A stretch of 5,541 nucleotides of DNA from NCBI GenBank assembly GCA_903930515.1, contig CAIYYW010000344.1, forward strand, positions 1-5,541, written 5' to 3'. Below are positions 1,405 to 3,990 of this stretch, piece after piece. The DNA is from an uncultured delta proteobacterium (GTDB lineage Bacteria; RBG-13-61-14; DRUE01). Each line of letters starts with the position of its first letter. Positions within the stretch are counted from its first letter, which is position 1. The notes beneath the pieces were generated by a model that had not been told where the DNA came from, ran no database searches, and saw only the letters and a program-made list of their open reading frames with translations. Both the position numbers and the translations under genes were made by a program.

Positions 1405-2718
1405 TTATACCCGGTTGGTTTTCAAAAGATGGTCTCCCAGTCTCTTGCCTAAAGAGATCACGGTCAAAACCACGGGCAGATCCAGGGTTTCCGGGATCAC
1501 GCTCGCGTCGCAGCAGAACAGGTTCTTGATTCCGGTTTCCAGGTTGTCATTCACCACCTCGCCGATCCGCGCGGTGCCGCCCGGATGAGTGAGCCGGATC
1601 GGGGTGACGGCGATGGAATTCGGGTTCGCGCCGGCCTTGGTCAGGATCTTGACGGAAATCTCCGTGCCTTTTTTCAGCCGGTCCAGCTCGGTCTTGCGCA
1701 TGGGCTTGTGAAGGCGCTCGCTGGCAAAGATTTGTCCGTTCATCTCGTCTCCCACCTTGACCATAATTCCGAGGGCGCGTCCGAGCTGTAAGGCCTGCCA
1801 GAAGCGGGTCGGTCTTCCGAGCGCCATCATTGCCGGGAGCATCAGCCAGGGATCGGCCAGATTGGCAAAGACAATCCGCTCGTCATAATGGGCCAGGCTC
1901 CCAACCGACATCGGCGGATCATAGAGGGTGCCCTTGATGTCGCCTTTGGCGATTCCATAGACCATCACCACCGGATCGGTGAAAAATTTCTTGCCCGCTT
2001 CCTCAATCCCGCTCCGCAAGAGCACGCCCGGAGTCCCCACTCCGCCGGCGCTGATAATGGTGATCTTGGCTTTGAATTGCTTTTCCCCCTCCGGGGTTTT
2101 GGCCAGCACGCCGGTGCAAGAGCCATTGTCCCGGAGCACGCGTATAACTTTGCTTTTGAGGAAAAGCTCGGCGCCGAGCGAAACCGCCTGGTCAGCATAC
2201 TCAGCCGCGGTCCATTTCATCCCGCAACTGCATCCCATCATACAACTGCCCCCGGTGCAGTTTCCCTTGGCGCGCTCGGGCTTGAAAAATTTCCGGAACG
2301 GCTCCCAGTGATAGCCCAGGTCATTGGCCGATTTCATGATCAGCCGTCCGCTTTCCCCCAGTTGATGGTCCGGGAGCGGTTTCAGATCCAGTTCCTCAAT
2401 AGTCTCGTCCGCGTATGCTTCCAGGCCGATGTTATATTTTTCCTTCAGCCATTTCGGCGGGTATGCCGCGGTACCGCAATAGAGCAAAGTAGAGCCGCCC
2501 AAAGCAATTCCCCGGACAATCATCGGAGAGATCAAGCCCGGCATCATTCCCATTAAATCCACGGCCCCGAGCATTCCCAGCACTGTTCCCGGTTTTTCCA
2601 CCCGCGGACCCCGCTCCAGGATGCAGACCTTTTTCTTCGCCTTTGACAATTGAAGAGCCACCGCGGCCCCCGCGGGCCCGGAACCCACCACAATCGCGTC
2701 ATAAATTTTTTCCGCCAT
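1405..2718 (-). CDS. GMC-family FAD-dependent oxidoreductase with a cysteine cluster
   Basis: This 437-residue flavoprotein belongs to the glucose-methanol-choline oxidoreductase superfamily. The N-terminal Rossmann fold has GSGPAG (12-17) and Glu35 at the end of the second strand, both for FAD. ALGGST (72-77) matches the first GMC signature. The C-terminal domain has HPGGTARIG, with His378 at the position of the usual catalytic histidine, then CDASVIPE. The second catalytic residue, normally His or Asn before a proline, appears to be Leu414. Cysteines 154, 159, 163 and 165 cluster ahead of Gly-Met-Lys, resembling the cysteine segment of long-chain alcohol oxidase-like members. I chose the ATG at 2718 because a GGGGG ribosome-binding site (2727-2731) lies 8 bases upstream and the family N-terminus begins here; an in-frame ATG at 2775 would add 19 unlike residues and cover two hairpins. 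The upstream ferredoxin is a likely redox partner. The substrate is unknown; a hydrophobic alcohol, ketone or sterol/terpenoid-like compound is a guess. Confidence 0.9.
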   Translation of the reverse strand: MAEKIYDAIVVGSGPAGAAVALQLSKAKKKVCILERGPRVEKPGTVLGMLGAVDLMGMMPGLISPMIVRGIALGGSTLLYCGTAAYPPKWLKEKYNIGLEAYADETIEELDLKPLPDHQLGESGRLIMKSANDLGYHWEPFRKFFKPERAKGNCTGGSCMMGCSCGMKWTAAEYADQAVSLGAELFLKSKVIRVLRDNGSCTGVLAKTPEGEKQFKAKITIISAGGVGTPGVLLRSGIEEAGKKFFTDPVVMVYGIAKGDIKGTLYDPPMSVGSLAHYDERIVFANLADPWLMLPAMMALGRPTRFWQALQLGRALGIMVKVGDEMNGQIFASERLHKPMRKTELDRLKKGTEISVKILTKAGANPNSIAVTPIRLTHPGGTARIGEVVNDNLETGIKNLFCCDASVIPETLDLPVVLTVISLGKRLGDHLLKTNRV

Positions 2719-2749
2719 TTTTTTATCCCCCTTTTTCTTTTGGTTCGCG

Positions 2750-2771
2750 GCGCAGACACCCTTCTCTGCGC
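2750..2771. repeat. Inverted repeat in the ferredoxin-GMC gap (first hairpin)
   Basis: A perfect 7-base inverted repeat, GCGCAGA (2750-2756) and TCTGCGC (2765-2771), flanks an 8-base loop. In the leftward transcript it forms a hairpin about 20 bases before the GMC ribosome-binding site. No T-run follows it immediately. It could affect RNA processing or translation, or be chance in GC-rich sequence. Confidence 0.5.
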
Positions 2772-2779
2772 TCAATCCG

Positions 2780-2804
2780 TTGGCCGACAGGAGTGTCGGC
2801 CCAA
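2780..2804. repeat. Strong inverted repeat in the ferredoxin-GMC gap (second hairpin)
   Basis: A perfect 8-base inverted repeat, GGCCGACA (2782-2789) and TGTCGGCC (2794-2801), has a GGAG tetraloop. The outer bases TT (2780-2781) and AA (2803-2804) extend the stem to 10 pairs if C2802 bulges. It sits about 30 bases beyond the ferredoxin stop codon on the leftward transcript. There is no T-tract in either direction, so it is a poor intrinsic terminator. It may be an interspersed palindromic repeat or an RNA-stabilising or processing stem that lets the two genes be expressed at different levels. Confidence 0.6.
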
Positions 2805-2832
2805 CAATAGTCGCTCCCGTCCGCGCGCAATT

Positions 2833-3933
2833 TTAGTTTCTCTCCTGCCGTTCCTTCATCAGCTCCATCCCCAGTTCCAGAAAAGACCCTTTGGGCAAAA
2901 TCACCTGGTCTTGAGGACGGGCGACCATTGTAATCGCCTGCTCCTTGCATTTGAAAACGCACAGCCCGCAGCCGATGCACCGGCCCAGGTCGCGCTTAAG
3001 GATCTTTTTCTTGGGACGGGCCGGGTCGTCTTCCATCCAGAGAGCTTTCACCTGGCAGCGTTTGGCGCAGATCCCGCAGTCATTGCATTTTTCTTCATCC
3101 ACCTGGATCACGAACCCGCTGTTGGCGACCACCGACGGCAGGTTAAGCTTGTTGATCGCGCTCAAGAAACCGCAGCAGCACCCGCAGCAATTGCAGATGA
3201 AGCTGATCTTGTCCTGGATATTGTCCGTGATATGCACCAGCCCGGCTTCTTCGGAGAGCGCCAGCTTTTCCAGCATCTCCTCTTTTTCCGCTTTCCTCGC
3301 GAAGCCGCGTTGGATCGCGAAATCCACGAACGGCCCGAAGACCATACAGACTTCCTTCGGCTTCCTGCAGGCGTCTCCGAGCAACTCGTGCTCGTGCCGG
3401 CAGAAACAATTGGTCAGCGCCATCCATTTGGAATTTTCAATGATGTCCTTCACCCGCTGATACGGCTTGATGCTCTGGCCGGGCGCGATCGCCTGCTGGA
3501 TCGGGATGGTGCGGGTGAAATGGGTGCGGAACCCGAAGCTGGCCTTGCCCCAGCCGTTGAAATAGTATTCGTTGAAAAGCTTTGCCAGGGCGCGGGATTT
3601 CGGGTCATACCCGGCTTTCATAAACTGCAACTCGAAAATACCCGGCACCAGGGGAAGCAGAGTGTAAGTGCATTCGCCGTCCTTTTGATAAGCGAACACC
3701 AGCCCCTTGTCCGCGAGCGTCTCCAAAACCGGTTTCAGTTTTTCCGGCGCCATCCCGATCTGGTCGCAGAGCTTGTTCAGTTTTTCCCGAATCGGCTGGA
3801 TCGGTAATTGACTCGCGATCCCTGCTTCTTCCACGGTGAACAGTATTTTCAGGATCTGCTGCAGATGCTCGGTATTGGGAGCGCCGGTCGGGAACTGGTT
3901 TAAACGCTCGGCCAAAGCCTGGTAACTATCCAT
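2833..3933 (-). CDS. Polyferredoxin-like 4Fe-4S protein of the CxCR...CNCCGCCC type
   Basis: This 366-residue cytoplasmic protein has an N-terminal helical part (about 1-90) that may hold a winged-helix-like fold, a middle region (about 91-240) and a C-terminal ferredoxin domain. Cysteines 176, 178, 189 and 196 form a CxC(x10)C(x6)C pattern starting CFCRH. A very dense cysteine string, CNCCGCCCG, lies at 247-255. Two classical 4Fe-4S motifs follow: CNDCGICAKRC (283-293) and CIGCGLCVFKC (319-329). The protein could therefore hold two low-potential 4Fe-4S clusters plus one or more further metal centres. From memory, this architecture recurs in anaerobic bacteria and archaea without an assigned function. 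The ATG at 3933 is chosen because AGGAGGTG (3937-3944) lies 3 bases upstream and the promoter candidate is just beyond; the in-frame ATG at 3990 would fall inside that promoter. The GMC flavoprotein follows 114 bases downstream, suggesting electron transfer between them. Confidence 0.88.
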   Translation of the reverse strand: MDSYQALAERLNQFPTGAPNTEHLQQILKILFTVEEAGIASQLPIQPIREKLNKLCDQIGMAPEKLKPVLETLADKGLVFAYQKDGECTYTLLPLVPGIFELQFMKAGYDPKSRALAKLFNEYYFNGWGKASFGFRTHFTRTIPIQQAIAPGQSIKPYQRVKDIIENSKWMALTNCFCRHEHELLGDACRKPKEVCMVFGPFVDFAIQRGFARKAEKEEMLEKLALSEEAGLVHITDNIQDKISFICNCCGCCCGFLSAINKLNLPSVVANSGFVIQVDEEKCNDCGICAKRCQVKALWMEDDPARPKKKILKRDLGRCIGCGLCVFKCKEQAITMVARPQDQVILPKGSFLELGMELMKERQERN

Positions 3934-3936
3934 CAA

Positions 3937-3944
3937 CACCTCCT
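3937..3944 (-). promoter_or_regulatory. Ribosome-binding site that decides the ferredoxin gene start
   Basis: AGGAGGTG on the minus strand ends 3 bases before the ATG at 3933-3931. It is a near-perfect anti-16S match and favours this start over the in-frame ATG at 3990, which has no comparable site. Confidence 0.75.
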
Positions 3945-3961
3945 GGTTAAAACTACCGACT

Positions 3962-3990
3962 AATCTAGCAAATTTAAAGCCGGTTGGCAA
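3962..3990 (-). promoter_or_regulatory. Candidate sigma70-type promoter of the ferredoxin-GMC-phosphoesterase-lipocalin run
   Basis: On the minus strand a -35-like TTGCCA (3990-3985) and a -10-like TAGATT (3967-3962) are separated by exactly 17 bases. They match the consensus hexamers at 5 of 6 and 4 of 6 positions. Transcription would start near 3955, leaving a leader of about 20 bases before the ATG at 3933 that still includes the strong ribosome-binding site. The region is more AT-rich than its surroundings. This is a pattern match only, and in an unknown phylum the consensus may differ. Confidence 0.45.

Follow-up and report, generated by a model that had tools for sequence, protein, structure and literature searches.

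The window analysed here is a contig of 5,541 bases, taken whole, from a metagenome-assembled genome of 3.65 Mb; the host is probably an anaerobe. The genes follow one another on the minus strand in the order nicotinate phosphoribosyltransferase (fragment), Nudix, cysteine-rich ferredoxin-like protein, GMC protein, YfcE-type phosphodiesterase and Blc-type lipocalin, and a NifU-like domain is encoded on the plus strand. All features described below lie on the minus strand. The two genes under study encode P0002, a multi-[4Fe-4S] ferredoxin-like protein of 366 amino acids (2833..3933), identified from its translation, Pfam matches, a family alignment (A2) and an AF2 model, and P0001, a GMC-fold flavoprotein of 437 amino acids with an Fe-S ligand motif (1405..2718), identified from its translation, Pfam, an AF2 model and the Foldseek and VIA comparisons. 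Both start with ATG, and an AGGAGG ribosome-binding site precedes the ferredoxin gene (3939..3944). The list of open reading frames began the GMC gene at a TTG at 2775. That start is not supported: a sister protein, 92% identical, begins at the equivalent of 2718, and we therefore assign the start to the ATG at 2718.

A stretch of 114 nt separates the two genes in the window (2719..2832), compared with 3 nt in the sister genome (L030), where this stretch is missing. It contains a strong hairpin, GTTGGCCGACAGGAGTGTCGGCC, at 2779-2801, which is present in the genome in a single copy; a REP or other repeat element was discarded for that reason. The preliminary description of the locus, a cysteine-rich 4Fe-4S protein directly followed by a GMC protein, is borne out, as the Fer4, GMC_oxred_N and GMC_oxred_C models score above their cut-offs and the GMC gene comes after the ferredoxin gene across the hairpin-bearing gap. 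Its proposal that both are expressed from one promoter is compatible with the sequence. A sigma-70-like sequence matching the consensus (TTGCCA-17-TAGATT, with TG before the -10) is located upstream of the ferredoxin gene, at 3962..3990, and agrees with the proposal; a second promoter-like match (2955-2927) falls within the ferredoxin gene, with 0.5 matches expected by chance.

Pfam Fer4 models pass their cut-offs in P0002, which contains two CxxCxxCxxxC motifs with invariant cysteines. These [4Fe-4S] motifs, assigned from Pfam and A2, are C283-C286-C289-C293 (3055..3087) and C319-C322-C325-C329 (2947..2979). Two further groups of cysteines, invariant or nearly so in A2, are possible cluster sites: CxCR...C...C (C176, C178, C189 and C196; 3346..3408) and CxCC-x2-CC (C247, C249, C250, C253 and C254; 3172..3195). 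The AF2 model (pLDDT 92.6) resembles known structures chiefly over residues 20-94, predicted to form an N-terminal winged-helix domain of ArsR/MarR-like fold (3652..3876), and over residues 271-345, a 2[4Fe-4S] ferredoxin fold (Z about 9-10). Foldseek returned no whole-chain match with E < 0.001, only the winged-helix and ferredoxin parts being matched; this does not show that the fold of the middle part is novel. The best scores against the NCBIfam equivalogs HdrA, NuoI, FwdF and RnfB were 20-36 bits, all under the cut-offs. Identity with a known polyferredoxin (FwdF, MvhB, HdrA, or chains O and T of 9sfi) was rejected as well, the best stretches corresponding to 4Fe-4S repeats and not to the full chain.

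The ferredoxin family is strongly paralogous: of 12 genomes, each had between 3 and 62 matches to its profile. The Desulfobacterota-group genome G271 (8.9 Mb) contains 62 of these matches and five GMC-subfamily loci (L120, L124, L125, L127 and L138). In the phylum of the window, paralogues are found near genes for acyl-CoA dehydrogenase, acyl-CoA ligase, GlpA-like proteins and molybdopterin enzymes, as expected of a family of general electron carriers. At L047 (5930-9812, genome G002), a gene of this family directly precedes a GlpA-like gene and a second gene for an FAD protein; since it adjoins that pair, the ferredoxin may replace the usual third subunit there.

P0001 scores 61.7 bits with GMC_oxred_N (cut-off 23) and 31.3 bits with GMC_oxred_C (cut-off 24.6), and the FAD motif GxGxxG...E (G12, G14, G17 and E35) is conserved in the subfamily alignment. 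No signal peptide is evident. With the NCBIfam equivalog for the mycofactocin GMC dehydrogenase MftG, the score was 48.9 bits, below the cut-off of 400. The top PDB sequence match was FAD-glucose dehydrogenase (FAD-GDH, 6a2u), both for P0001 alone and for a profile built from 16 relatives. An AF2 model obtained with 52 sequences (pLDDT 91.9, pTM 0.92) gave fructose dehydrogenase and FAD-GDH as top Foldseek matches (TMq about 0.8), with VIA Z scores of 34.5-35.6 over about 420 residues. By its predicted fold, P0001 is a member of the GMC superfamily. The VIA ranking is not decisive by itself, because cholesterol and choline oxidases reach Z 34-34.5; hydroxynitrile lyases, which are non-redox GMC-fold enzymes, are also among the structural matches. 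From both sequence and model, we place P0001 closest to the FAD-glucose and fructose dehydrogenases, which among GMC enzymes are those that contain a 3Fe-4S cluster of their own.

In FAD-GDH, C212, C218 and C222 ligate a 3Fe-4S cluster that lies 12-13 Å from the flavin N5 and passes electrons on to a separate subunit (PMC6719666). P0001 contains a cysteine ladder, C154-X4-C159-X3-C163-X-C165 (2224..2259), that the preliminary description did not mention and that aligns with these ligands. The HMMER alignment sets C..CMxGC of the subfamily on C212..CMPIC of 6a2u, the spacing in P0001 (CX4CX3C) being one residue shorter than that of FAD-GDH (CX5CX3C). A C-x2..6-C-x3-C ladder was found in 47 of the 56 collected members of the subfamily; as the other nine are devoid of it, the cluster is not universal in the subfamily. 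Because the ladder is aligned and kept in 47 of 56 members, P0001 probably holds an Fe-S cluster of its own. Ladders such as CHGCGVCTLGC are also encoded by three further GMC genes of the same genome (L003, L004 and L005), and Fe-S-type GMC proteins may therefore be common in it; two of the three show an Asn in the C-terminal motif. At L067 (6868-9546, genome G026), two GMC-subfamily genes are arranged in tandem, one of them without the usual ladder spacing.

The likely catalytic pair of FAD-GDH is His476/Asn519 (PMC6719666). In the subfamily alignment, His378 (codon 1585..1587), the GMC catalytic histidine by motif order, and Pro415 (codon 1474..1476), which occupies the column of Asn519, are invariant in all 53 aligned GMC sequences. 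The second catalytic Asn/His of classical GMC oxidases and dehydrogenases was thus not found in P0001, and because the classical two-residue active site fails, the name GMC oxidase is unfit for this protein.

Relatives of the GMC protein were drawn, flanks included, from genomes of the same phylum, another small phylum, 297 genomes of the Desulfobacterota group and a few others. The nearest named one, an uncultured 'delta proteobacterium' from Alinen lake sediment (L030), belongs to the same genus, its GMC protein being the 92% identical one mentioned above, and keeps the order ferredoxin-GMC-YfcE-lipocalin-NifU. Its ferredoxin gene (8892-9997) is interrupted near residue 173, the two parts lying in different frames, by either an assembly error or a true frameshift. 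The exact pair of the window was found in these two genomes only. A gene of the ferredoxin family lies within 3.5 kb at 12 of the 56 GMC loci, two of them from this genus and one, L070, with the gene about 2.8 kb away; the remaining 44 have no such gene nearby. Outside the genus, it is the direct neighbour at 9/54 loci, and both gene orders occur. At the highest ferredoxin density observed, which is an upper bound, 0.84 cases would be expected by chance (P about 1e-7), an estimate that treats loci as independent, which near-copies such as L125/L126 are not. With per-genome ferredoxin counts, the expectation falls to 0.27 against the nine observed, the 12 genomes used having been picked partly because pairs were seen there. 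Part of the excess may be due to the abundance of the ferredoxin family.

When the presence of the ferredoxin was mapped on the GMC tree, seven changes were needed, at least five of them on well-supported branches. In the ferredoxin tree, the paired proteins are scattered over several places: six from the Desulfobacterota group share one branch and have no winged helix, and that of the window groups with an unlinked orthologue (57%) of the same order, in which ferredoxin orthologue and GMC relatives occur apart. A ferredoxin branch dedicated to GMC proteins was considered and rejected. Its best-scoring members adjoin GMC genes, yet for 16 of 24 hits the DNA stretches covered contain no adjacent GMC match, so that membership of the branch is not confined to GMC loci. 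Considering the nine loci outside the genus, with fewer than one expected, and the seven changes in the tree, the adjacency is not merely local. The preliminary description had set restriction to close relatives against the pairing; what we find is an adjacency recurring in kind outside the genus, in Desulfobacterota. Its term 'dedicated' for the ferredoxin partner is too strong, because the pair occurs in two genomes, an orthologue from the same order has no GMC gene beside it, 44 of 56 GMC loci are unpaired and the Desulfobacterota ferredoxins belong mostly to another branch. A search of the open-access literature (subscription papers being outside its scope) found no description of this pair.

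Commoner than the ferredoxin around the wider GMC subfamily are genes for a BadF ATPase and/or HGD-D proteins (2-hydroxyacyl-CoA dehydratase or class I benzoyl-CoA-reductase-like), present within 3.5 kb at 15 of the 56 loci. GMC-subfamily genes are located within such sets at L120, L124, L127, L128, L134, L136, L137 and L149. This link may be weightier for function than the ferredoxin pairing. Acyl-CoA ligases, acyl-CoA dehydrogenases and enoyl-CoA hydratases are recurrent neighbours, 3-hydroxyacyl-CoA dehydrogenase is also found, and DUF1302/DUF1329 proteins recur in one clade. None of the BadF/HGD-D, acyl-CoA or DUF1302/DUF1329 genes is near the pair in the window; five HGD-D matches are present elsewhere in the genome. 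By analogy, our guess is that the substrate could be an acyl-CoA or a hydrophobic cyclic compound. A link to the flavoproteins of benzene activation was ruled out, these being of the VAO/PCMH type with an HdrC-like partner, and not GMC proteins.

We propose that the pair consists of a flavo-iron-sulfur dehydrogenase that works without O2 and of a polyferredoxin to which it is wired, a reading whose cofactors, complex, direction and substrate are predicted from sequence, models and analogy and to which we assign a probability of about 0.5. P0001 would bind FAD and also, close to its surface, a single cluster of the [3Fe-4S] or [4Fe-4S] type, with C154, C159, C163 and perhaps C165 as ligands. 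It would act on a small organic substrate with His378, lacking the usual His/Asn pair as Asn is replaced by Pro. Electrons would move between the FAD, this cluster and the adjacent multi-cluster ferredoxin, which would fill the role that a cytochrome c subunit has in FAD-GDH. We lean towards the oxidative direction, from substrate to FAD, cluster and polyferredoxin, because of the homology to FAD-GDH and the beta-oxidation-like neighbours. The proposal finds support in ferredoxin-family genes beside other dehydrogenase genes (the GlpA-like/FAD pair, acyl-CoA dehydrogenases). The ladders of other GMC proteins of the genome, some keeping the Asn, count against it. From sequence comparison, an oxygen-independent use of the GMC fold is plausible, because like pairings recur in relatives of sulfate reducers. 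The earlier idea of such a GMC protein with an Fe-S partner thus gains from the ligand motif at the 3Fe-4S site and from the adjacency outside the genus, and is weakened by the unpaired state of most members.

Electrons may instead run from the polyferredoxin through the GMC cluster and FAD to an unsaturated or carbonyl substrate, in a ferredoxin-driven reductase in which His378 alone would be the acid and the loss of Asn would reflect lost alcohol oxidation. Reduction of a low-potential ferredoxin by an alcohol is uphill, and BadF/HGD-D-type ATP-dependent reductases use reduced ferredoxin. This direction is favoured by that energetic barrier, flow from a low-potential ferredoxin being downhill, as well as by the invariant change of Asn to Pro and by the BadF/HGD-D genes near 15 of 56 loci. 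However, the cluster of the closest solved relatives drains electrons from FAD (PMC6719666), and the acyl-CoA ligase, acyl-CoA dehydrogenase and 3-hydroxyacyl-CoA dehydrogenase neighbours suggest oxidation; we regard the reductase as possible, if rather doubtful. Unlikely, in our opinion, is a single transcription unit devoid of physical partnership, with the GMC protein using another carrier and the ferredoxin serving something else. The separate occurrence of both proteins in the same order, the lack of a ferredoxin neighbour in most GMC members, the abundance of the ferredoxin family and the hairpin-bearing gap, which weakens coupling in this genome, are consistent with it, but adjacency recurs far above chance at distant loci and in both orders, and synteny within the genus includes a gap of 3 nt. 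A non-redox GMC-fold enzyme with a structural or metal-binding ladder and an unrelated ferredoxin, as hydroxynitrile lyases among the structural matches and the lost catalytic Asn could suggest, is highly improbable given the alignment of the ladder with a proven Fe-S site (PMC6719666) and the recurrence of iron-sulfur proteins as neighbours.

If the flavo-iron-sulfur dehydrogenase reading is true, the GMC fold would be extended into anaerobic low-potential metabolism, and the subfamily, which occurs in relatives of sulfate reducers and in candidate phyla, would provide a gene target for unexplained steps by which anaerobes degrade hydrophobic or cyclic compounds. Only tentatively do we suggest a broader interpretation, a new GMC subfamily of anaerobes with a His/Pro site and FAD-cluster-ferredoxin wiring that would act as companion or subunit of ATP-dependent acyl-CoA reductase sets; in it, the GMC fold would catalyse redox reactions coupled to ferredoxin, with no O2, quinone or cytochrome involved.

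With respect to known systems, the wider subfamily is flanked most often by the HGD-D pairs and BadF typical of class I benzoyl-CoA reductase and 2-hydroxyacyl-CoA dehydratase, which are absent beside the pair in the window; the GMC protein is not known as a subunit of these systems. GMC enzymes are known to pass their electrons to O2, quinones or cytochromes. The classical oxidases (choline, cholesterol and glucose oxidase) have the fold, the FAD motif and the active-site His in common with P0001, which differs in its cysteine ladder and in the Pro that replaces the Asn/His partner in 53/53 aligned members. Residues 271-345 of P0002 resemble the 2[4Fe-4S] domains of the PFOR delta subunit (9bt4_G), formate hydrogenlyase (7z0t_F) and the FwdF/HdrA ferredoxin domains; the winged-helix N-domain and two further cysteine motifs go beyond these, and no solved relative was found over the whole length. 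The large subunit of fructose dehydrogenase from Gluconobacter japonicus (8jej, 9jqa) is the best fold match of P0001 (Z 35.0-35.6). That enzyme is membrane-bound with a haem c partner, whereas P0001 has no evident signal peptide and a ferredoxin-like gene as neighbour. The FAD-GDH alpha subunit of Burkholderia cepacia (6a2u, 8grj) has the same GMC fold over some 420 residues (VIA Z 34.5-34.6). P0001 differs from it in the Pro at Asn519, in being about 100 residues shorter and in an identity of about 20%. The hitchhiker (gamma) and multihaem cytochrome c genes of FAD-GDH and fructose dehydrogenase are absent beside the pair, whose neighbours within the window are ferredoxin, YfcE, lipocalin, Nudix and nicotinate phosphoribosyltransferase genes. 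FAD-GDH and P0001 share the cysteine ladder at the 3Fe-4S site, and the electron route that we propose is patterned on the relay from FAD to cluster in FAD-GDH.
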